Source of the DNA: Palleronia marisminoris
GTDB taxonomy: Bacteria > Pseudomonadota > Alphaproteobacteria > Rhodobacterales > Rhodobacteraceae
DNA length: 64,000 bases
Direction: 5' to 3'
Assembly: GCF_900172315.1 (NCBI RefSeq)
Contig: NZ_FWFV01000008.1
Span: forward strand, 124,001-188,000
Both the position numbers and the translations under genes were made by a program. The notes below the pieces were generated by a model. The model had not been told where the DNA came from and made no database searches. It saw nothing but the letters and a program-made list of their open reading frames with translations. Shown in pieces: positions 3,853-28,838 of this stretch; the stretch's first letter is position 1; every line of letters begins with the position of its first letter.

Positions 3853-3879
3853 CAGGGCGCGCGAAAGCCGCGCGCCCTG
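3853..3879 (-). promoter_or_regulatory. Perfect intercistronic stem-loop after the SBP gene
   Basis: Two perfect 11-nt arms (CAGGGCGCGCG at 3853-3863 and its complement at 3869-3879) enclose a 5-nt loop. The hairpin lies in the 112-nt gap between the substrate-binding protein stop and the peptidase start on the leftward transcript. There is no U tract after it, so it looks more like a 3'-end stabiliser or partial terminator that keeps SBP mRNA more abundant than the permease mRNA. That pattern is well known in other importer operons. The function is inferred. Confidence 0.65.
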
Positions 3880-3896
3880 CCTCGTCGATCGGTCGA

Positions 3897-5474
3897 TCAG
3901 CCGTCGGGGTTCAGCGTGACGGTGTCGAACAGGTGGCCGCCCAGCGGGTGGACGATGTAGCCTTCGACCTCGGACCGGACCGGCATGAAGGTCGTCGAGT
4001 GGGCGATGGTGGCCCACGGCGCCTGCTCCTTGAAAACGACCTGCGCCTCTTCATAAAGCTTCGCGCGCTCGGACTGGTCCGAAAGCGTCTTGGCTTCCTG
4101 CACCAGCTGGTCGAACTCTTCGTTGCACCACTGGGCACGGTTCGCACCGCCGACGCCGTCGCAGCCCAGAAGCACGGCCAGGAAGTTGTCCGGATCACCG
4201 TTGTCGCCCGTCCAGCCCAGAAGCACCGCACCGTCGCGGTCCACGGCCGACGACCGCTCGAGATACTCGCCCCACTCGTAGGACACGATCTCGACGTCGA
4301 CGCCGATCTCGGAGAAGTCTTCCTGGATCAGCTCGGCCATCCGGCGGGCGTTGGGGTTGTAGGGACGCTGGACCGGCATCGCCCAGATCTTCATCGACAG
4401 GTCCTCGACGCCGGCCTCTTCCAGCATCTGGCGCGCGGCTTCGGGGTCGTAGGGGTCATCCTCGACGGCGTCATTATAGGACCACATGGTGGGCGGGATC
4501 GGGTTCTTGGCCGCTTCGCCCTGTCCCGCGAAGATCACGTCGAGGATCGCCTGCTTGTCGATCGCCATGTTCAACGCCTTGCGGACCTGCGGGTCGTCGA
4601 AGGGCTCCTGCGTGGTGTTGTAGGCGAGGTAGCCGACGTTCAGCCCTTCCTGGTCCAGAAGCTCCAGGTCGGTATTCGCGCGGATCGCCTCGATATCGGC
4701 CGGGTTCGGGTAGGGCATGACGTGGCACTCGCCGGCCTGCAGGCGCTGCAGGCGGACCGAGGCGTCGGGCGTGATGGCGAAGACGAGGTTGTCGAGCTTG
4801 GGCTCGTTGTCCTTCCAGTAGTTCTGGTTCTTCGAGTAGCGGATCACGGCGTCCGTCTGGTAATCCTCGAAGACGAACGGCCCGGTGCCGATGGGGCGCT
4901 GGTTGATCATCTCGGGCGTGCCGGCCTCGGCCATGGCGTCGGCGTATTCCTTCGACACGATCGAGGCGAAATCCATCGCCATATTGGCGATGAAGGGGGC
5001 CTCGGCGCGGGTCAGGTTGAAGCGGACCGTCAGGTCGTCGACCTTCTCGACCGAGTCGATCAGGTCGGGCATCGACATGGAGTTGTAATACTCCCACGAG
5101 CCGTCGCCTTCCTGGCGCTCGAAGCTGTAGATCACGTCGTCGGCGTTCATCTCGCGCGTGGGGGTGAACAGGTCGTTCGAGTGGAACTGCACCCCGGGGC
5201 GCAGCTTGAACGTCACCTGCGTGCCGTCTTCGCTGACCTCGTAGGATTCGGCGAGGCCGGGGACGGTGTTGGTGGTGCCGGTCTCGAACTCGACGAGCTG
5301 GTTGTAGACGGTGTGGCTCGAGGCGTCGAACGTCGTGCCGGCAGTGTAGAGGGCCGGGTCGAAGCCCTCGGGGCTGCCTTCCGAGCAATAGACCAGCGTC
5401 TGGTCCTGGGCATACGCGGCGCCGGCAGCGCAGAGCGCGAGCGCCGAGACGGCGAGCGTGTGGCGAAATTTCAT
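3897..5474 (-). CDS. dppA: Peptide ABC transporter substrate-binding protein (SBP family 5)
   Basis: Periplasmic receptor of 525 residues, the normal size for family 5 binding proteins. The chosen ATG begins MKFRHTLAVSALAL, a classical Sec signal peptide ending AAYAQ-D with cleavage near residue 20. A strong Shine-Dalgarno (GGAGT) lies just upstream. The family signature is visible as FKLRPGVQFHSNDLF followed by TREMNADDVIYSFER, and later YNTTQEPFDDPQVRKALNMAID. Aromatic and acidic pocket residues are typical of DppA. It is the first gene of the leftward operon and is followed by a strong stem-loop. A longer in-frame start exists upstream but would destroy the signal peptide. Confidence 0.94.
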   Translation of the reverse strand: MKFRHTLAVSALALCAAGAAYAQDQTLVYCSEGSPEGFDPALYTAGTTFDASSHTVYNQLVEFETGTTNTVPGLAESYEVSEDGTQVTFKLRPGVQFHSNDLFTPTREMNADDVIYSFERQEGDGSWEYYNSMSMPDLIDSVEKVDDLTVRFNLTRAEAPFIANMAMDFASIVSKEYADAMAEAGTPEMINQRPIGTGPFVFEDYQTDAVIRYSKNQNYWKDNEPKLDNLVFAITPDASVRLQRLQAGECHVMPYPNPADIEAIRANTDLELLDQEGLNVGYLAYNTTQEPFDDPQVRKALNMAIDKQAILDVIFAGQGEAAKNPIPPTMWSYNDAVEDDPYDPEAARQMLEEAGVEDLSMKIWAMPVQRPYNPNARRMAELIQEDFSEIGVDVEIVSYEWGEYLERSSAVDRDGAVLLGWTGDNGDPDNFLAVLLGCDGVGGANRAQWCNEEFDQLVQEAKTLSDQSERAKLYEEAQVVFKEQAPWATIAHSTTFMPVRSEVEGYIVHPLGGHLFDTVTLNPDG

Positions 5475-7499: not shown

Positions 7500-8405
7500 C
7501 TAGCGACGCATCATCTTCAACGGCACGGTCCGCGCGAGCCGCGTGAAATGCGCCATGAACGGCCGGTCCGATTCGTCGGACCGGACTGCGGCATACAACC
7601 TGCGGGTCAGGCCCGTCTTCGTCAGGGGCCGGGTGACATAGTCCGACTGCAGCTTGACGTCGCGCACGACCCAGTCGGGCAACACGGCAACGCCCCGCTG
7701 GCTGGCCACGAGTATCAGGATCATTGCCGTCAGTTCGACCTGCCGGATCGCCTTCGGCGTGACGCCGGCGGGAATGAGAAGCTCGGTGAACGCGTCCAGC
7801 CGCTCGGGCGGAACGGGATAGGTGATGAGGGTTTCTTCGGCAAAATCCTCGGCCGTGACATATTCCTTGGCTGCCAATGGGTGCCCCGACGCGGCGATGA
7901 AGACGGGTTCGTAGTCGAAGAGCGGCAGGAAGCTGATGCCCGGCAGCTCTTCGGGGTCGGACGAGATGACAAGATCAACCGTCTCGCGCTGCAGCGCGGG
8001 CAGGGCGTCGAAGGCGAGGCCGGGGCGGATATCGACATCCACGTCGGGCCAGGCGCGGCGGAACTGCTCGAGCACAGGGAACAGCCATTCGAAGCAGGCG
8101 TGACACTCGATAGCGATATGCAGCCGCCCCGAGCTGCCGGCGACGAGTCCCGCGAACTCGGCCTCGAGCGCTGCCACTTCGGGCAGGATCCGCTCGGCCG
8201 CGCGCAAGAGGCGCATCCCCGCGGAGGACAGCTTCAACGGTTTGGATCGCCGCAGGAACAGCTCGACCCCGGCCTGGTCTTCCAGGTTCTTCACTTGGTG
8301 GGACAGCGCCGATTGCGTGATGTTCAACCTGTCGGCCGCGCGCGCCAGACCGCCTTCGTCATGGATCGCCTTGATCGTCCGCAGGTGGCGGAACTCGATA
8401 TGCAT
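7500..8405 (-). CDS. metR: LysR-family regulator of methionine genes, MetR type
   Basis: DNA-binding regulator of 301 residues. The N-terminal winged HTH (residues 1-60) contains ARAADRLNITQSALSHQVK followed by LEDQAGVELFLR, the usual LTTR pattern. The effector domain has IECHACFEWLFPVLEQFR, which is strongly MetR-like; MetR senses homocysteine. The gene is divergent from metF with a 91-bp gap holding inverted repeats, the classic MetR arrangement. Its stop lies two bases from the end of the aminotransferase gene. By analogy it should activate metF and perhaps other methionine-synthesis genes when homocysteine accumulates. Confidence 0.9.
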   Translation of the reverse strand: MHIEFRHLRTIKAIHDEGGLARAADRLNITQSALSHQVKNLEDQAGVELFLRRSKPLKLSSAGMRLLRAAERILPEVAALEAEFAGLVAGSSGRLHIAIECHACFEWLFPVLEQFRRAWPDVDVDIRPGLAFDALPALQRETVDLVISSDPEELPGISFLPLFDYEPVFIAASGHPLAAKEYVTAEDFAEETLITYPVPPERLDAFTELLIPAGVTPKAIRQVELTAMILILVASQRGVAVLPDWVVRDVKLQSDYVTRPLTKTGLTRRLYAAVRSDESDRPFMAHFTRLARTVPLKMMRR

Positions 8406-8496
8406 ATGCTGTCGAACTCATGATGGTCTTCAACTTTATGAGTTTGTCTCACGAAGGACGGCATGGGACAAGGCGTCAAACAAGAGGGTCAGTCCG
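8406..8496. promoter_or_regulatory. metR-metF divergent control region with inverted repeats
   Basis: The gap contains AACTCAT (8415-8421) and its perfect inverted partner ATGAGTT (8438-8444), 16 nt apart. It also holds a 13-nt dyad TGAGTTTGTCTCA (8439-8451) shaped like the LysR-type box and close to the known MetR consensus TGAA-N5-TTCA. The position between the divergent regulator and its expected target fits a MetR recognition and activation site. Site calls were made by eye. Confidence 0.55.
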
Positions 8497-9354
8497 ATGT
8501 GCCGCGTCAGCTACGAATTCTTCCCGCCAAAATCCCTCGAGGCCTCGTTCCGCCTGAGGGACACGCTCAACGTGCTTGCCCCCACGGCGCCGGACTTCGT
8601 GTCGGTGACCTACGGGGCAGGGGGCACCACCCGCCAGCTCACCCATGAGGCGGTGACGACGATCGCCAAGACGACGGGCCTGCGCGTTGCGGCGCACCTG
8701 ACCTGCGTCGATGCCTCCAAGGCGCAGACGCTCGAGATCGCGGAAAGCTATGCCGAGGCCGGCATCACCGACATCGTCGCGCTGCGCGGCGACATGCCGG
8801 GCGGCGCCGCCTTCGTGCCCCATGGCGAGGGCTTCTGCTCGTCCATCGAACTGATCGAGGCGTTGGCCGAGACCGGCAAGTTCACCATCCGTGTCGGAGC
8901 CTACCCCGACCGCCACCCCGAGGCGCCCTCGGACCAGGCGGATGTGGACTTCCTCAAGCGCAAGATCGACGCGGGTGCGACCGAAGCGATCACGCAGTTC
9001 TTCTTCGAGGCCGAAACGTTCCTGCGCTTCCGCGACCGCTGCGCCGCCGCGGGGATCGACGCGCCGATCGTGCCCGGCATCCTGCCGATCGAGAACTGGA
9101 AGGGCGTGCGCAAATTCGCCACCGCCACCGGCACTGTCATCCCGGCCTGGCTGGACCAAGCCTTCGCAGTCGCGGCGCGCGACGACCACACGGACCTGCT
9201 CGCGACCGCCATCTGCACCGAGATCTGCTCGGATCTTCTGAGCGAAGGCGTCGACAAGCTGCACTTCTACACCCTGAACAAGCCGACCCTGACCCGCGAC
9301 GTGATCCACGCCCTTGGCCTCGCGCCGGAGCCCGGGCTCGAAAAGGTCGCCTGA
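8497..9354 (+). CDS. metF: 5,10-methylenetetrahydrofolate reductase
   Basis: Flavoprotein of 285 residues that reduces 5,10-methylene-THF to 5-methyl-THF, the methyl donor for methionine synthesis. It starts MCRVSYEFFPPKSLEASF; the FFPPK signature with catalytic Glu in YEFFPPK is diagnostic. VSVTYGAGGTTR, LRGDMPGG and GAYPDRHPEAPS are further MetF motifs. GAYPDRHP is the folate and FAD region. It is divergent from metR and so probably under its control. The methyl-THF made here would feed the corrinoid and homocysteine methyltransferase proteins encoded at 40.9-43.9 kb. An upstream in-frame extension exists but lacks the family N-terminus. Confidence 0.96.
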   Translation: MCRVSYEFFPPKSLEASFRLRDTLNVLAPTAPDFVSVTYGAGGTTRQLTHEAVTTIAKTTGLRVAAHLTCVDASKAQTLEIAESYAEAGITDIVALRGDMPGGAAFVPHGEGFCSSIELIEALAETGKFTIRVGAYPDRHPEAPSDQADVDFLKRKIDAGATEAITQFFFEAETFLRFRDRCAAAGIDAPIVPGILPIENWKGVRKFATATGTVIPAWLDQAFAVAARDDHTDLLATAICTEICSDLLSEGVDKLHFYTLNKPTLTRDVIHALGLAPEPGLEKVA

Positions 9355-9397
9355 CGGTCAGCGCATCGCGAGGCAACGATCGGGCCTCGCCTTCAGC

Positions 9398-9450
9398 TTC
9401 ATCCTGCCGGGAACGCTTTTTTGGGGTCTCCGCCCGACGGCATTCGGGCG
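9398..9450. repeat. Diverged copy of a dispersed intergenic stem-loop element
   Basis: TTCATCCTGCCGG (9398-9410) matches the leader of the elements at 30136 and 40884. It is followed by a T6 run and a different hairpin, CGCCCGA (9431-9437) with TCGGGCG (9444-9450). It lies in the gap between the convergent metF and GMC oxidoreductase genes and may serve as a terminator. The similarity to the other two copies is limited to the leader and the general shape. Confidence 0.45.
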
Positions 9451-9491
9451 GGTGCCTTCAGAAGAATCGTCGCTCCCGCGATGGCGCACCT

Positions 9492-11123
9492 CTACCGGCT
9501 CGCGAGGATCATGTCCGAGGCCTTCTCGGCAATCATCGTGACCGGCGCGTGGGTGTTTCCCGAAACGATGGTCGGCATGATGGAAGCATCCGCTACCCTG
9601 AGGCCCGTCAGACCATGGACGCGGAGATCCGGGGCCACGACTGCCATCCGGTCCTGTCCCATCCGCGCGGTGCCGACGGGATGGAATATCGTGGTGCCGA
9701 CCCGCCCCGCCGCTTCCACGAGTTCGGCGTCGCTTTCAAGCTGCGGTCCCGGCAGCACCTCGTCGGGCCGGTAGGTCCGCATCACATCCGCCTGCATGAG
9801 TCGGCGGGCGGTGCGCAGGCTTTCGACCGCGACGATGCGGTCGCCTTCGGTCGACAGGTAGCGCGGGCGGATCTCGGGCGCGCTTGCCAGATCGCCATCG
9901 CGCAGGTGCACGCTGCCCCGGCTTTCCGGGCGCAAGTTGCAGACCGAAACCGTCATGCCGGGATAGGTGTGCAGAGGCGAGCCGAAGCTGTCGAGCGACA
10001 GTGGCTGGACGTGGAACTCGATGTTCGCGCTCTCTTCGCGCTGGGACGAGCGGCAGAAGATCCCCAGCTGGCTCGGCGCCATCGACATCGGCCCAGAGCG
10101 GCGGACGAGATATTCGAGCGCGATCACGGCCTTGCCGAACGAGGTCGCAACGCGGTCGTTCAGCGTCCTGGCGCCTGTGATCCTCCACACGGTCCGAAGC
10201 TGCAGGTGATCCTGCAGGTTCTCCCCGACGCCCGGCAGCGAATGGTGCGTCTCGATCCCGTGCTTCGGCAGCAGATCGGGATTGCCGATGCCGGACAGTT
10301 CTAGGATCTGCGGCGTTCCGATGGCCCCTGCGGACAGCACCACCTCGCGCCCCGCCCGCGCATGGTTGGGCTTTCCACGCACAACGTAATCCACGCCCGT
10401 CACACGCGAGCCGTCGAGGACGAGTCGTTCGACCTGCGCACCGGTCTCGATCCGCAGGTTCGGCCGCTTGCGCACAGGGTCGAGGAAGGCTTTCCGTGCG
10501 TTCCACCGCAGCCCGCGCCGCTGTGTCACCGGAAAGTATCCGACGCCCTCGTTGTCGCCGTCGTTGAAATCGTCGGTGCGGGCGATGCCCATCTCTTCGG
10601 CGGCATCCGCCACGTGGTCGAGGATCGGCCAGCTCAGTCGCTGCTGCTCGACTCGCAACTCGCCGCCCTTGCCGTGGAAGGCGTCGGCCGCGCCCCAGTG
10701 ATGCTCGGACTTGCGGAAGTAGGGCAGGATGTCGTCCCAGCCCCAGCCGGCATTGCCCATCTGCCGCCATTGGTCGTAGTCTCGCGCCTGGCCGCGCATG
10801 TAGATCATGCCGTTGATCGACGAGCACCCGCCCAGCAGCTTGCCGCGAGGATAGTTCAGAGCCCGCCCGCCGAGCCCCTCTTCTGCCTCGGTCCGAAAGC
10901 ACCAGTCCATCGACGGATTGCCCATGGCATAGAGATAGCCCATCGGCACATGCACCCAGAAGCGGTTGTCGCTTCCGCCGGCCTCGAGCAACAGGACCCG
11001 GTTAGCGGGATCCGCGCTCAGCCGGTTCGCCAGCACGCACCCGGCCGAGCCTGCCCCGATGACGATGTAGTCGTAGACCCCGGTATCGGCGCGGTCCGTC
11101 ACCCTGCCGCTCTTCGTACGCAT
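9492..11123 (-). CDS. GMC-family FAD oxidoreductase (choline dehydrogenase-like)
   Basis: Flavoenzyme of 543 residues oxidising an alcohol to an aldehyde. The FAD-binding beta-alpha-beta motif is GAGSAGCVLANRL near residue 22, with VLLLEAGG at the end of the second strand. PROSITE-type GMC signatures are present as YPRGKLLGGCSSINGMIYMRG and VVLSAGAIGTPQIL (each read in part). The catalytic His is in IFHPVGTARMG, with the partner Asn/His in GNTHAPVTMIAEK. An AGGAG site precedes the ATG by 5 nt. It is the last gene of the GntR-linked leftward operon and directly overlaps the end of a decayed FAH gene. No choline or betaine genes are nearby, so the substrate is probably another hydroxylated compound. 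Confidence 0.85.
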   Translation of the reverse strand: MRTKSGRVTDRADTGVYDYIVIGAGSAGCVLANRLSADPANRVLLLEAGGSDNRFWVHVPMGYLYAMGNPSMDWCFRTEAEEGLGGRALNYPRGKLLGGCSSINGMIYMRGQARDYDQWRQMGNAGWGWDDILPYFRKSEHHWGAADAFHGKGGELRVEQQRLSWPILDHVADAAEEMGIARTDDFNDGDNEGVGYFPVTQRRGLRWNARKAFLDPVRKRPNLRIETGAQVERLVLDGSRVTGVDYVVRGKPNHARAGREVVLSAGAIGTPQILELSGIGNPDLLPKHGIETHHSLPGVGENLQDHLQLRTVWRITGARTLNDRVATSFGKAVIALEYLVRRSGPMSMAPSQLGIFCRSSQREESANIEFHVQPLSLDSFGSPLHTYPGMTVSVCNLRPESRGSVHLRDGDLASAPEIRPRYLSTEGDRIVAVESLRTARRLMQADVMRTYRPDEVLPGPQLESDAELVEAAGRVGTTIFHPVGTARMGQDRMAVVAPDLRVHGLTGLRVADASIMPTIVSGNTHAPVTMIAEKASDMILASR

Positions 11124-11296
11124 TTCTGCTCCTGAACTCCCAGCCTGTCGATTTCGAGGCCCATGACCTCACCTTCCCGAAGGAAGACCTGCGGCCGCAA
11201 CCCGGCCCGACGCCAGGGGGCGTCCCGTTGGTGACGACATCGCCGGGCTCGAGCGTCATGAAGGTGCTCAAGTAGCTCACAAGGTAGGGAAGCCCC
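11099..11296 (-). pseudogene. Remnant of a fumarylacetoacetate hydrolase (FAH) family gene
   Basis: Only the C-terminal part of the family is left. One frame reads LVSYLSTFMTLEPGDVVTNG then TPPGVG, the highly conserved FAH metal-site end. The frame then breaks, and the next frame continues with LRPQVFLREGEVMGLEIDRL, the usual FAH tail. Restoring one G in the run at 11201-11203 would join them. The N-terminal 150-200 residues expected of the family are absent. It sits between the TRAP receptor and the GMC gene, so a deletion plus a frameshift inside the operon is the simplest account. Homology is read from motifs only. Confidence 0.78.
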
Positions 11297-11425
11297 GCCC
11301 GAGGCAGGGGCCGTGTCCGCGAGGCCACCGCTTCGCGGGCCGTGTTGTCGCGTTGTGCCATTGCTCTCCGTCCGGGTGAGTGCGGTGAGCGTCGGGCGGA
11401 CTGCCAGGCTGCCCGCCCTGAAGGC

Positions 11426-12448
11426 TCAGTCGAGCATGCCTTGCTCTTGCAGGTAGGTCGTCAGGGTGTCGTATACCTTCTGGGCGTTTTCCGACTGACC
11501 GGCGACGTTCTCCCACTGTTCCATGGCGATGGTGCGGAACCGCGCGCGGTCCTCGCTGGACCAGTTGTGCACCGTGATGTCGGGGTTCGCCTTGGCCTCG
11601 GCGACGGCCTCGAGATCCTTGATCGACAGTTGCGCCACCATGTCCGTGGCGAGGTCGCGCACCGACACGGTCATGATCTCCTGCAGATCCTCGGGCAGCT
11701 TGTTCCACTCGTCGAGGTTCATGGAAACTTCGACCAGCGGCATCGAGTGGAAACCCGGGTAGACCGGGTGGTTTCCGGCCTCGTGCAATCCCGCCGCCTG
11801 GTTCGTCGAGAACACGGTGGAGTCGGCGGCGTCGATGACACCCTTGTCGAGCGCCGTGAACACCTCGGCATAGGGCAGGTTCACCGGAACGGCGCCCGCG
11901 GCGGCGAAGACCTGCTGGATCAGGCCTTCCGGCGCGCGCACCTTCAGGCCCTTCAGATCATCGACGCCCTCCAGCGGCTCTCTGGAGACGAAGCCTTCAA
12001 GACCGGTCGTCGTCGCCCCAACGAAACGCAGGTTGTAGGGCTCTTCGAGCTCCTGCATCAGTTCGTTTCCACCGCCGTAGCGCATGAAGCGGAACATCTC
12101 TTCCGGCGACGACCATGCGCCGATCGGGTTCGCGACCAGACCAAAGGCCGGGTCCTTGCCCGAGAAGTAGCTGACATCCGTGACGTGCCCGTCGAGGATT
12201 CCGGCCCCCACGGCGTCCTGGGTCTCGTTGTATTCAACCACGGCGCCCACCGGCAGAAGATCGATCTGGATGCGGCCGCCGCTCATCACGCCGACGCGGT
12301 TGGCCCACGCGTCCTGGATCTCGAAATTTGGATTTCCCGCAGGATCGACGGACTGGAACGTGAAGGAATGCTCCTGTGCGTGGACAGGCAGTCCCGTTGC
12401 GGCCGTCAGGACTCCGGCGGCAATCATCGTGCTGATCTTGTTAGCCAT
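11426..12448 (-). CDS. TRAP transporter solute-binding protein, DctP family
   Basis: Periplasmic receptor of 340 residues. The start MANKISTMIAAGVLTAATG is a Sec signal peptide ending VHAQ near residue 24, with GGAGGAG just upstream. DctP family features include the substrate-carboxylate region (GLKVRAPEGLIQQVF) and the hinge sequence GAVPVNLPYAEVFTALDKGVIDAAD; the Arg in LKVRAPE is the expected carboxylate contact. No DctQ or DctM membrane genes follow. The next downstream sequence is a broken FAH gene, so the receptor looks orphaned, unless it uses TRAP membrane subunits encoded elsewhere. It is the second gene of the GntR-linked operon. Confidence 0.88.
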   Translation of the reverse strand: MANKISTMIAAGVLTAATGLPVHAQEHSFTFQSVDPAGNPNFEIQDAWANRVGVMSGGRIQIDLLPVGAVVEYNETQDAVGAGILDGHVTDVSYFSGKDPAFGLVANPIGAWSSPEEMFRFMRYGGGNELMQELEEPYNLRFVGATTTGLEGFVSREPLEGVDDLKGLKVRAPEGLIQQVFAAAGAVPVNLPYAEVFTALDKGVIDAADSTVFSTNQAAGLHEAGNHPVYPGFHSMPLVEVSMNLDEWNKLPEDLQEIMTVSVRDLATDMVAQLSIKDLEAVAEAKANPDITVHNWSSEDRARFRTIAMEQWENVAGQSENAQKVYDTLTTYLQEQGMLD

Positions 12449-24422: not shown

Positions 24423-25865
24423 ATGAGCTTCACTCTCGCCATTGTCGGACGCCCGAACGTGGGCAAATCCACCTTGTTCAACCGGCTCGTCGGCCGCCGC
24501 CTTGCGCTGGTCGACGACCAGCCCGGCGTCACCCGCGACCTGCGCGAGGGCGAGGCCAAGATCGCCGATCTTCGCTTCACCGTAATTGACACGGCGGGCC
24601 TCGAGGATGCAACCGACGACTCTCTTCAGGGGCGGATGCGGCGCCTGACCGAGCGCGCGGTCGAGATGGCGGACGCGTGCCTCTTCGTCATCGACGCGCG
24701 TGTGGGAGTGACGGCGGTCGACGAGATCTTCGCCGAGATTCTGCGCCGGAAGTCCGCGACCGTCATCCTGGCAGCCAACAAATGCGAGGGGCGCGCGGCC
24801 GAGGCCGGGCTGCTCGAGGCCTACGCGCTTGGCTTGGGCGAGCCGGTGCGCCTGTCGGCCGAGCATGGCGAGGGGATGATGGACCTCTACACGCTGCTGA
24901 AGCCGATGGTCACCGACGCCGAGGAGCGGGTGACCGAGACGGCACCCGAGACGGATGTGGATGTCGACGAGGACGATCCCGATGCCGGCCCCCGCGTGCC
25001 GACCTGGGAGAAGCCGTTGCAGGTGGCCGTCGTGGGGCGGCCGAACGCCGGTAAATCCACTCTGGTCAACAAGTTGCTGGGCGAAGAGAGGCTGCTGACC
25101 GGGCCCGAGGCTGGGATCACCCGGGATGCGATCTCGGTCCGGCTGGACTGGGACGGGTTGCCGGTTCGGATCTTCGACACGGCGGGGATGCGCAAGAAGG
25201 CGAAGGTCCAGGAGAAGCTTGAAAAGCTTAGCGTTTCCGATGGGTTGCGGGCCGTCAAGTTTGCCGAGGTGGTGGTGGTTCTGCTTGATGCCGCCATACC
25301 GTTCGAGCAGCAGGATCTGCGGATTGCCGACCTGGCCGAGCGTGAGGGTCGGGCGGTCGTGATCGCGGTCAACAAGTGGGACGCCGAGGCGGACAAGAAC
25401 GAGAAGATTCAAATGCTTCGCGAGGAGTGTGAACGTCTTCTGCCGCAGCTTCGGGGGGTGCCGTTGGTCACGGTTTCGGCCAAGACGGGGCGGGGGCTGG
25501 ATCGGCTAAGGGATGCGATCCTTGGGGCGCATGACGTGTGGAACCGGCGCGTAACAACTTCCAAGTTGAATCAATGGCTTGGCGCGATGATCGAGGCGCA
25601 CCCGCCCCCTGCGCCCGGTGGGCGGCGGATCAAGTTGCGGTACATGACTCAGGCGAAGACCCGGCCGCCGGGGTTCGTGGTCATGTGCTCGAATCCCAAA
25701 GAAATGTCAGAGGCTTACAGCCGATACCTCGTAAACGGGTTGAGGGTGGATTTCGACATGCCGGGGACTCCGATCCGGCTTTGGATGCGGTCGCAGAGCG
25801 ATCAGAACCCGTTCAAGGGGCGGACGAAATCGACGCCCTCGCGGCTTCGCAAGCATTTGAAATAG
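24423..25865 (+). CDS. der: Ribosome-assembly GTPase Der (EngA)
   Basis: Double GTPase of 480 residues needed for 50S subunit maturation. Domain 1 has G1 GRPNVGKS (9-16), G3 DTAG and G4 NKCE, the last a common variant of NKxD. Domain 2 has GRPNAGKS (about 205-212), DTAG and NKWD. The KH-like C-terminal domain (about 370-480) contains [19 protein letters not shown]. An acidic linker of about 30 residues joins the two G domains. The gene follows bamB by 45 bases and is the last of this rightward set. Confidence 0.97.
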
Positions 25866-25880: not shown

Positions 25881-26585
25881 TCAGATCTCTGTGCGAGATC
25901 TGTAGGAGAAGTGTAGGACCCCTGCGACCGCAAGGACGCCCGCCGCGGCAACGGCTGCGAGGGCGGTGAGGGTCGTCAAATCGCCCCAGTTGCGGATTGC
26001 GACGCCGATGAAGGCCCAGGCGAGGGCGGCGGCGTAGGCGAGGCTTGGGCGGGCGCGCAGGGTCGCGAGACCCACGGCGAGGGCGAGGGCCAGTGCGACG
26101 AGGGCGGCGGTGGTGCCGCCGATCAGGCCGTAGCCGGCGGCGAGGAGGCCGAGGCTGACAGCGCTCGCCGCCGTGAGCCAGCCGGCATAGAGGCCGAGCG
26201 GGGTGGACAGTGCCCACGGGTCGGACGGGCCTGCGCGGCGCAGGGCGACGAGGGCGCCCGCCAGCATGATCAGGATCAGGAATGTCGCTCAGAGGGGCGA
26301 GGCCTTGGCGACGGGGATCCAGATGGCCCCGACGGCGAGGCTGAGTGCGAGGGGGGCGCGGGTTCGGGCCCAGTCGGGGTCATCGCCGCGGCGCAGGCCG
26401 ATGAGGCCGTGGGCGATCAGCGCCAGATAGATCAGCCCCCAGATCGAGAAGGCGTAGCCTTCGGGGGTGACGGGCGGGTCCTGTTGCGGGACGGGGAAGG
26501 CGTTCGGGTCGAACCCGCCGAAGCTGCCGGTCAGCAGCGGTGACGCGGCGAAGGCGAGGGCGAGGAGGGGGATGAGGTATCGCAT
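25881..26585 (-). pseudogene. TspO/tryptophan-rich-sensory-like membrane protein interrupted by an in-frame TGA
   Basis: The frame from ATG 26585 reads MRYLIPLLALAFAASPLLTG and on to PVAKASPL, then meets TGA at 26289-26291 (codon 99). It continues in the same frame as ATFLILIMLAGALVALRR to a natural end. Together the 234 codons make a normal-length multi-helix protein of this family, with PPVTPEGYAFSIWGLIYL as the recognisable motif. Relatives, as I recall them, carry Trp at the interrupted position, so TGG to TGA is the simplest change. Alternatives are two separately translated halves (an ATG at 26267 exists), readthrough, or a sequencing error. Confidence 0.75.
25882..25902. terminator. 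Perfect hairpin between der and the convergent TspO-like gene
   Basis: CAGATCTC (25882-25889) and GAGATCTG (25895-25902) form an 8-bp stem with a 5-nt loop, 17 nt past the der stop and overlapping the end of the opposing gene. There is no U run, so it may be a Rho-assisted or bidirectional terminator. Confidence 0.4.
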
Positions 26586-26729
26586 GGAGTGCGATGTGGG
26601 GCGGTTTGGGGGGAGGGGTAGGGTGAGACGGGCTAACAAGATGTGCGGCGAAATGGTTAGCGCCGGTTGCCTGCTGACTGTAATTGGATTTATTTGACAT
26701 ATAGTGTGGCAGGGCGAGGGGAGAGGCGT

Positions 26730-27548
26730 ATGTCAAAGAAATTCGATAAATTTACCGCTGAGCTAGATGATCTGATAAAACAGGGTGACAGCCTCCATAT
26801 GGCGATCCAATACGACTGCTTGCCAGATGAATTTCGCGAGAAGGCATGTGAGAATCTTGGCGAGCAAGGGGCGGAGACTTTTATAAAAGGCCTTCCCGAC
26901 TTCAAGGAGGAATATCAAGCTTGGTATTCAGAAGCGCAAGCGGTCATCAAGCAGGTCTTCCCGGAAAGACTGTCCGACTTTCGAAATTATTTTGAATTTC
27001 CGCGGGTGCGAAAGGATATTACGTTCCAAAACTATATGATCAAGGATTACTTGCAGGGGCTTAGTATAACCAGGGGTTCCGCTTGGGAAAAGCAGGTCAT
27101 AGCGGATGGCTCTGCTGCCATTCCTGAGTTCAGACAGCAATTATCTATTGTCAAAGCTGCTCGAGAAAAGCTGACGAGTTCTTTGTTGAACTTAAAGCTG
27201 ATATTGCAGGCACATCTTTTTGATTCCGAAATTTCAGGCGCACGTTCTCTTGCAAAAAACGGTTTCCTTCGAGCTGCGGGGGCGATCTGCGGCGTGATTA
27301 TCGAAAAACACTTGCATCAAACGCTGGAGAGCCACTCGGTATCTTCTCGAAAGAAGCATCCGGGTATCTCTGATCTCAATCAAGTGCTGAAAGACAATGA
27401 TGTCATCGACGTTCCGCAATGGCGCTTCATTCAGCACTTGGCCGATATTCGTAACTTGTGTGACCACGCGAAGGGACGAGAGCCCAAAGCTGAGGAAATC
27501 GACGACCTACTTTCGGGCGTGGAGAAGGTGCTCAAAACGGTCTTCTAA
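26730..27548 (+). CDS. Accessory protein with C-terminal HEPN-type Rx4H motif (AT-rich island)
   Basis: Protein of 272 residues with no signal peptide or membrane helix. The N-terminal part (1-60) is acidic and helical. The middle contains ITFQNYMIKDYLQGLSITRG (98-117). The C-terminal part (about 170-272) has the helical pattern GFLRAAGAICGVIIEKHLHQ, then RNLCDH at 241-246. That is the Rx4H motif of HEPN domains, many of which are metal-independent RNases in toxin-antitoxin and defence systems. I believe the family is widespread among accessory genes but lacks an assigned role. GC in two sampled 60-nt lines is 47%, far below the neighbours. GAGGGGAGAGG precedes the ATG. No antitoxin partner is visible. 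Confidence 0.8.
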   Translation: MSKKFDKFTAELDDLIKQGDSLHMAIQYDCLPDEFREKACENLGEQGAETFIKGLPDFKEEYQAWYSEAQAVIKQVFPERLSDFRNYFEFPRVRKDITFQNYMIKDYLQGLSITRGSAWEKQVIADGSAAIPEFRQQLSIVKAAREKLTSSLLNLKLILQAHLFDSEISGARSLAKNGFLRAAGAICGVIIEKHLHQTLESHSVSSRKKHPGISDLNQVLKDNDVIDVPQWRFIQHLADIRNLCDHAKGREPKAEEIDDLLSGVEKVLKTVF

Positions 27549-27569
27549 TTCTTTGGTCTCGCGAGTGGC

Positions 27570-28838
27570 CTACGAAGTTGCCAGCACTTCCACGCCCCCC
27601 ATATACCCCCGCAGCACCTCCGGCACGACGACGGAACCGTCGGGCTGCTGGCCGTTCTCCATCACCGCGATCAGGGCGCGGCCGACGGCTACTCCGCTGC
27701 CGTTCAGGGTGTGGACGAATTGGGGTTTGCCTCCGTCCGAGGGCTTGAAGCGGGCGTTCATGCGGCGGGCCTGGAAGTCCCAGCAGTTCGAGACCGAGCT
27801 GATCTCGCGGTAGCGGTTCTGGCCCGGCAGCCAGACCTCGATGTCGAAGGTGCGGCGGGCGCCGAAGCCGGTGTCGCCGGTGCACAGCTTGATCGTGCGG
27901 TAGGGCAGGCCCAGCGCCTCGAGGATGCCCTCGGCGCAGGCAAGCATCCGGAGTTGCTCGTCGTCGGAGGTGTCGGGGTGGGTGATCGAGACCATCTCGA
28001 CCTTCTCGAACTGGTGCTGGCGGAGCATGCCGGCGGTGTCCTTGCCGGCGCTTCCGGCCTCGGACCGGAAGCACAGGGTGTGGGCGGTGAAGCGTTTCGG
28101 CAGGTCGGATTCGGAGAGGGTCTCGCCCGCGACGATGTTGGTCAGGGGCACCTCGGAGGTAGGGATCAGCCACCAGCCGTTGGTGGTCTGGTAGCTGTCC
28201 TCGGCGAATTTCGGAAGCTGGCCGGTGCCGCGCATCGCCTCGTCCTTGACGAGGACGGGGGGGATGACCTCGGTCAGGCCGTTCTGGTCGACATGGGTGT
28301 CGAGCATGAACTGCGCCAGCGCCCTGTGGAGGCGGGCGATCTGGCCGCGGATGAGGGCAAAGCGCGAGCCGGAGAGGCGGGCGGCGGTCTCGAAGTCGAT
28401 GTCGGCGGTGAGGTCGTAGTGTTCCTTGGCGTTCGCGATGGGGGTGGGGTCGCCGTGGCGCTTGATCTCGACGTTGTCATCCTCGGAGGTGCCTTCGGGG
28501 ACGTCGGGGGCCATGGTGTTGGGCAGGGTCATGAGCTGGGCGATCAGCTCGGCGTCCTTTTCGCGGGCGGCCTGTTCCTGGTCGGCGACCTCGGCCTTCT
28601 TCTGGGCGACCTCGGCGCGGAGGCGTTCGAAGGCGGCGTCGTCGCCGCTGGCCTTGGCCTGGCCGACCTGCTTGGAGGCCGCGTTCTGCTGGGCCTTGGC
28701 GGTCTCGGACGCGTGGATGGCGGCGCGGCGGGCCTCGTCCAGGGCGAGAAGGGGGGCGGAGGCGTTCGAGATCCCGCGCAGGGCCATGGCGGCGTCGAAG
28801 GCCTCGGGATTGTCGCGGATCGTGCGGATGTCGTGCAT
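27570..28838 (-). CDS. serS: Seryl-tRNA synthetase
   Basis: Class II aminoacyl-tRNA synthetase of 422 residues charging tRNA-Ser. The N-terminal coiled-coil arm (about 25-105) has the expected Ala/Lys/Glu-rich repeats. Motif 2 is [21 protein letters not shown], read in part, with TSEVPLTN upstream for serine binding. Motif 3 is [18 protein letters not shown]. The ATG at 28838 starts [15 protein letters not shown], a canonical SerRS N-terminus. The gene converges with the HEPN-motif gene, leaving only 21 nt between stops, and is divergent from rnd. Confidence 0.97.

Follow-up and report, generated by a model that had tools for sequence, protein, structure and literature searches.

A single-gene HEPN candidate for anti-phage defence in a variable tspO-serS cargo site of Palleronia marisminoris

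Why does a solitary AT-rich gene stand between tspO and serS in the GC-rich chromosome of Palleronia marisminoris, and what might its product do? The stretch of DNA analysed here (64 kb, hereafter the window) has a GC content of about 0.67 and contains an island of about 0.95 kb with a GC content of about 0.49. The GC profile lies at 0.47-0.51 across about 1 kb at the gene in question, which we call hepn, at 0.72-0.76 just to its left and at 0.68 to its right, and no other gene longer than 240 bp that the gene caller found in these 64 kb has a GC content below 0.57. The window gene is open across 272 codons and is flanked by a tspO-like gene and by serS (Table 1); serS and, further left, der are names that we presume from the sequences of these genes. 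No consensus promoter and no terminator was found for the window gene.

An earlier reading of the same DNA (the sequence-only reading) had pointed to a low-GC gene at this place with the string RNLCDH at residues 241-246, alone among "housekeeping or decaying" neighbours. The ORF, its coordinates, its low GC content and the position of the motif were all right, and the motif is kept in 24 of 24 aligned relatives. Its solitude is likewise borne out, in that only the tspO-like gene and serS adjoin it and the relatives have, by eye, no constant partner. The description of the neighbours stands in part: the tspO-like gene is damaged, but by one in-frame stop after residue 98, with the rest open to the gene end, and not by broad decay. 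Its product matches PF03073 TspO_MBR under the cut-off (E 0.0013) on those first 98 residues.

Table 1. Features of the window and contents of the occupied tspO-serS gaps of the genus
Feature	Position	Strand	Remarks
hepn gene	26730..27548	+	272-aa protein; N-terminal region (~1-160) without known relatives, C-terminal HEPN domain (~160-268) by profile comparison
R241-N-L-C-D-H246 codons, Rx4H motif	27450..27467	+	R, N, C and H identical in 25/25 rows of the family alignment, window included
AT-rich cargo interval	26626..27569	.	DNA homology to species G394 ends at 26625 and restarts at 27589; serS stop codon starts at 27570
tspO-like gene, left flank	25881..26585	-	single in-frame stop at codon 99; place kept in genus
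serS, right flank	27570..28838	-	94% identity to species G394, against 82% for der
der (GTPase), outer left flank	24423..25865	+	part of the conserved order der-tspO-serS
Gap cargo, window			HEPN by profile comparison
Gap cargo, L051 (species G394)	3869-4780		unnamed 303-aa protein with RNHAMH string
Gap cargo, L053	2162-3310		DUF5677, AT-rich
Gap cargo, L054			YaaC
Gap cargo, L055			putAbiC
Gap cargo, L056	3237-4508		nothing above cut-off, AT-rich
Gap cargo, L057	1980-3254		nothing above cut-off, AT-rich
Gap cargo, L058			CBASS cyclase and 2TM effector
Gap cargo, L060			channel-like gene (by eye) of normal GC and coiled-coil protein
Gap cargo, L062			resembles a sorted surface protein (by eye only)
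Gap cargo, L063			GmrSD_N; PADLOC NsnA at 1e-75

Membership of the HEPN superfamily

Taken alone, the window protein stays under every Pfam and NCBIfam cut-off. Its sub-threshold Pfam matches were HEPN_Apea (E 0.021), HEPN (E 0.079) and two irrelevant models; the two matches in NCBIfam were weak and irrelevant, the two in PHROGs weak and unnamed, and PADLOC gave no match at E up to 10. A family alignment of 25 rows was built from the window protein, 16 of the 17 related loci in genome_contigs and 8 of the 12 in IMG/VR, leaving out L018 (frameshifted), L027-L029 (with the same neighbourhood as L026) and L030 (with that of L016); L044 and the Paraburkholderia plasmid match H1 are also not in it. 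The window protein is 49-70% identical to the other 24 rows. Best E-values among the 25 members were 1.3e-5 for HEPN_Apea (PF18739, with four members at E up to 0.1), 1.3e-4 for DUF4145 (PF13643, seven members) and 8.6e-3 for HEPN (PF05168, seven members), and these weak matches cover the C-terminal region where positions are given. The N-terminal region retrieved nothing above cut-off in Pfam or NCBIfam and nothing convincing in PDB sequence searches. HEPN_Apea homologues were present in 2 of 200 genomes.

Profile-profile comparison with hhalign placed the family alignment on an alignment of three HEPN-like proteins with a probability of 99.4% and E 9e-22 (profile positions 126-265), setting RNLCDH over RNNAAH of the target. 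This target combines one protein from an Acinetobacter plasmid with two from genomes; the Acinetobacter member, the only one scanned against Pfam, passes both HEPN (38.5 against a cut-off of 22 bits) and DUF4145 (32.3 against 23.1). A Halorhabdus plasmid protein (99.1%) and a protein of Lactobacillus phage JNU_P1 (89%) also align with the family, and both fail the Pfam HEPN models. In contrast, two unlike proteins, Tha-1 and the cargo protein of species G394, scored 1.3% and 0.8%.

HEPN RNases are described in PMC3710099 as acting via an Rx4-6H motif. The superfamily is recognised by this motif with a polar residue after the R, and the window family has R241, N242 and H246 in these places, identical in all 25 rows (24 relatives and the window). 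Further traits of the superfamily are a four-helix fold, a dimer with a composite active site and a second conserved acidic residue upstream of the motif, often in Ex3[KR]; E167 and E192 are invariant in the family alignment. The pattern R....H alone is weak evidence because composition predicts 0.40 per protein. Here the motif is more than chance, since all 24 relatives keep it and it aligns in register with that of a Pfam-positive HEPN protein; when the invariant R and H columns were placed at random, such a pair arose in 3.6% of trials. Judged by profile-profile comparison, the window protein thus belongs to the HEPN superfamily. The earlier assignment is upheld at this level, although no Pfam model matches the single sequence above cut-off.

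The tspO-serS gap in the genus and in other genera

The order der-tspO-serS is kept across the genus, with a der-tspO spacing at most about 140 bp off the window's value (split alignments). The tspO-serS gap was measured in 13 of 14 genus genomes; G066, where it is cut by a contig end and a transposase-like gene is present, was left out. The gap is 81 and 121 bp long in two genomes and 0.97-2.7 kb in the other 11, all of which are longer than 500 bp and AT-rich, with a GC content at least 0.10 under that of the rest of the stretch. The sequence-only reading had called a foreign gene in this core locus unusual, which does not apply to the genus: with 11 of 13 species carrying an insert there, the gap is a cargo site. 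It is a hotspot flanked by core genes, with the same flanks, different cargo and defence genes included (Table 1). A comparison of fourteen gap proteins, drawn from these gaps and from G066 and leaving aside the channel-like gene of L060 and the gene of L062, found no similarity at E <0.1, and the RNHAMH-containing cargo of G394 was rejected as a homologue of the window protein (hhalign 0.8%). Inspection by eye of the longest ORFs in the 12 listed gaps revealed no integrase or transposase, and an integrase-driven island was rejected for the window, whose interval contains no integrase. We found no paper on a tspO-serS cargo site in the literature.

Named defence genes occupy 3 of the 10 other filled gaps, namely CBASS in L058, putAbiC in L055 and GmrSD_N/NsnA in L063; the 7 gaps without a named defence gene count against a defence reading. 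The unplaced proteins of L051, L053, L054, L056, L057 and L060 are defence candidates because of their location, and the cargoes of L051, L053, L056 and L057 are possibly unrecognised defence genes on the same ground. A very small cargo site thereby points to further candidates.

For comparison with other genera we drew 60 loci, following list order, from the 136 genomes that had a serS match; the window's genome, G066 and three loci near contig ends were excluded. The gap was measurable in 31 of the 60, the other 29 being cut or having no detected tspO. Twenty-five of these gaps were shorter than 500 bp and six longer, none of the latter with a GC drop of at least 0.08. AT-rich gaps longer than 500 bp are thus found in 11/13 cases in the genus against 0/31 in other genera (Fisher p 1e-8) and gap size differs as well (Fisher p 9e-5), both p values being optimistic because the loci share ancestry. 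A family-wide AT-rich hotspot was rejected, as the six longer comparator gaps have a GC content close to that of their surroundings. In four comparator loci (L067, L070, L090 and L098) the gap holds a gene of normal GC whose product, which we take to be DUF2235-like, starts with a FCDGTWN- or FIDGTWN-like string.

How the cargo is exchanged is suggested by one pair of species. Between the window and G394, the excess of serS identity over der identity (Table 1) is 12.0 points, the largest among 78 species pairs (mean 1.7, sd 3.2, next largest 6.2), and in a 10-kb test stretch elsewhere identity is 78-81% over the four longest pieces. G394 also has, adjoining its own cargo, a second 5' fragment of tspO that shares 93% identity with that of the window. 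DNA homology ends on one side of the interval and resumes on the other, and different cargoes therefore lie between nearly identical flanks. This case, one case and a signature rather than a rate, fits an exchange of cargo by homologous recombination in the flanks, and it opens to testing the question of how defence genes travel without integrases.

A GTA_TIM protein (G000:C22:435220-436107, E 5e-148) is encoded in the window's genome and suggests the presence of a gene transfer agent there. Gene transfer agents pack short chromosome pieces, so a vehicle for such pieces may be at hand, and we conjecture that it could carry the tspO-serS cargo. Passages of PMC5635113 attribute hotspots without mobile elements to recombination in the flanks and name gene transfer agents as an unexplored route for this integrase-free movement of defence genes, and a Caulobacter immune system is described as controlling gene transfer agent release (PMC13236601). 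The matches listed for gene transfer agents and anti-phage defence, in the portions of those sources at hand, contained nothing on the tspO-serS locus.

Distribution, context and possible function of the window gene

Relatives of the window protein (46-70% identity, full or nearly full length) are scattered and mostly from Pseudomonadota. Seventeen were found in genome_contigs, at 49-67% identity over the whole or nearly the whole query, one of them frameshifted; 13 belong to Pseudomonadota and the rest to Bacteroidota (two), Nitrospirota (one) and Zixibacteria (one), where mis-binning is possible because all four are metagenome-assembled. IMG/VR contributed 12 related loci (L026-L029 are one neighbourhood and L030 repeats the genome locus L016), the Paraburkholderia phymatum record NC_010625 one relative at 46% identity, and INPHARED one match only, weak and partial. 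The GC content of the gene is under that of its flanks in all 17 genome_contigs relatives. Counting the window's own genome each time, the gene is present in 1 of 14 genomes of the genus, 2 of 394 in the family sample (the other match being a C-terminal fragment), 6 of 385 in the class sample by profile search (four full or nearly full length) and 5 of 398 in the phylum sample (two full or nearly full length). The sequence-only reading had named two outcomes that would speak against it, the lack of a HEPN match and presence of the gene in all close relatives with normal composition and a housekeeping partner. Neither occurred, since a HEPN profile match was found and the gene is rare, being absent from the 13 other genus genomes and found as a fragment in 1 of 393 other family genomes. 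A midpoint-rooted tree has two clades, one with the window, alphaproteobacteria and viral contigs and the other with the rest, and recent transfer therefore seems to run mostly within the class.

Three of these loci are described here in their own right. The C-terminal fragment of L019 (G064:C156:359-523) appears by eye to adjoin a uvrB-like gene, and the frameshifted copy of L018 (Mesorhizobium) stands near a uvrA-like gene, also by eye. In L006 (Thalassospira, 8001-11871), from another order of bacteria, the relative adjoins der and a bamB-like gene in the opposite orientation; a der neighbourhood, as in the window, may be chance or a wider hotspot at der.

Several relatives are located in prophages, with terminase, portal, head or endolysin genes next to them. 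Downstream of hepn in Stenotrophomonas rhizophila and related contigs come DNA methyltransferase, endolysin, terminase and portal genes; in L030 it has terminase, portal, endolysin and methyltransferase genes nearby. It is convergent with terminase in L020 and with head genes, including the major head protein, in L023, and it follows tail fibre and methyltransferase genes in L022. Neighbour identities were mostly read from translations, and of the ten neighbour proteins in phage loci that were tested by scanning, nine had a PHROG match. Other relatives, often alone, stand beside ordinary genes. By eye, the methyltransferase gene, shared by L022 and the Stenotrophomonas group, is the only partner gene that recurs across lineages. 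In Lactobacillus phage JNU_P1, a remote relative is found among repressor, ImmA/IrrE and integrase genes.

With moderate confidence, we consider the window gene to be a solitary anti-phage effector of the abortive-infection type, a phage-associated putative HEPN RNase. An abortive-infection role, also raised by the sequence-only reading, is plausible. Several observations count against the effector reading: in the tested phage loci hepn is near late genes and not in a lysogeny module, the window protein has no above-cut-off match in Pfam or NCBIfam and none in PADLOC, the relatives outside Pseudomonadota may be mis-binned, the INPHARED match is weak and partial, neither a consensus promoter nor a terminator was found, and a single case of recombination was seen.

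It is unlikely, in our estimate, that the gene instead encodes a HEPN ribonuclease with a host role during stress or dormancy, or a locus-stabilising toxin whose antitoxin is encoded elsewhere or forms part of the same chain. HEPN-MNT toxin-antitoxin pairs exist (PMC11087260, in the part that treats them), the broken Mesorhizobium copy is followed by an FRG-like and another HEPN-like gene, and a HigBA-like pair and a Fic/Doc-like gene are near the relative in L008 (both by eye). Nevertheless, the window gene has no adjacent partner and its relatives, by eye, no constant one, and the phage-borne relatives and the defence cargo at the site fit defence better. A toxin-antitoxin pair was rejected, as a constant partner was not seen; an MNT nucleotidyltransferase is absent from the window gene's two neighbours, tspO-like and serS, and none was seen by eye beside the relatives.

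The late-gene position of hepn in L020, L022, L023 and L030 (among late or lysis genes, not in the lysogeny module) also agrees with an accessory gene whose product benefits the phage, for instance by targeting host RNA or some other defence, and which was left behind after transfer. We regard this as quite improbable, given that the gene is full-length in several chromosomes without phage genes within a few kb (by eye) and that the remote relative in JNU_P1 occupies the region of the repressor, ImmA/IrrE and integrase genes, where superinfection-exclusion genes are often found. An insertion without present function, to which the stop in the tspO-like neighbour, the frameshifted relative L018 and the C-terminal fragment in G064 might point, is very improbable for a gene open over 272 codons, 49-70% identical to 24 rows and with an intact motif.

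For an anti-phage effector, the putative RNase activity, its trigger, the protection from phage and the vehicle of transfer would be as follows. The gene would have arrived with a temperate phage or a similar carrier and would now sit in the tspO-serS cargo slot, where foreign genes may be exchanged via homologous recombination in the flanks without an integrase. The conserved N-terminal region probably holds the protein quiet and senses a phage product, so that no separate antitoxin would be needed, and the C-terminal HEPN domain probably dimerises and cuts RNA through R241 and H246. A bolder version appears unlikely to us: the gap would be a docking place for immune cassettes of one or two genes, exchanged as fragments of a few kb with the gene transfer agent as a possible vehicle, and the HEPN protein would be a single-chain immune system not described before, its HEPN RNase being under the direct control of a new sensor at the N-terminus.

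Comparison with known systems

The closest parallel in layout is Tha of S. aureus prophages, an RNA-cutting protein that phage tail proteins activate (PMC11087260, in the passages concerned). Tha is like the window protein in having a length of about 300 aa, an N-terminal region without known domain and a C-terminal HEPN domain with an RNxxxH motif, and in being encoded in prophages, as are several relatives of the window protein. Membership in Tha was nevertheless rejected, as no homology to Tha-1 is detectable (hhalign probability 1.3%) and the motifs are not aligned. The Tha-1 gene overlaps the excisionase gene, next to the integrase, and is itself overlapped by the antisense inhibitor gene ith. 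By analogy, the Tha-like layout, together with the lack of an antitoxin and a setting of phage and defence genes, suggests that the window protein works like Tha, with the N-terminal region as a putative sensor.

DUF4145 proteins are fused to restriction enzymes, helicases, AbiJ-NTD1 and others in the part of PMC3710099 that lists them; unlike these fusions, the N-terminal region of the window protein matches nothing above cut-off. The HEPN proteins of JNU_P1 (L049) and of the Acinetobacter plasmid (WP_005065062.1, L048) resemble it in having the motif in register and in residing on mobile DNA, but the alignment is confined to the C-terminal parts, with 28-30% identity across about 110 residues. 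Remote HEPN similarity is reported in 6 of 21 functionally selected defence systems (PMC9519451) and four HEPN systems among 31 (PMC13092281), as given in the portions of these papers at hand. The window family may be identical with one of these systems. Pfam, NCBIfam, PADLOC and PHROGs give it no name, and it presents itself as a compact candidate for HEPN defence by a single gene.

The site, finally, resembles the hotspots without mobile elements of PMC5635113 and the core defence hotspots of P. aeruginosa (PMC10250203), as far as the relevant passages describe them, in having variable foreign genes between fixed core flanks, no integrase seen by eye and a sign of recombination in a flank. 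The tspO-serS site was compared across the species of one genus, and its occupied gaps measure 1.0-2.7 kb, in contrast to the median of 26 kb given for cDHS1 of P. aeruginosa in the corresponding passage of PMC10250203.
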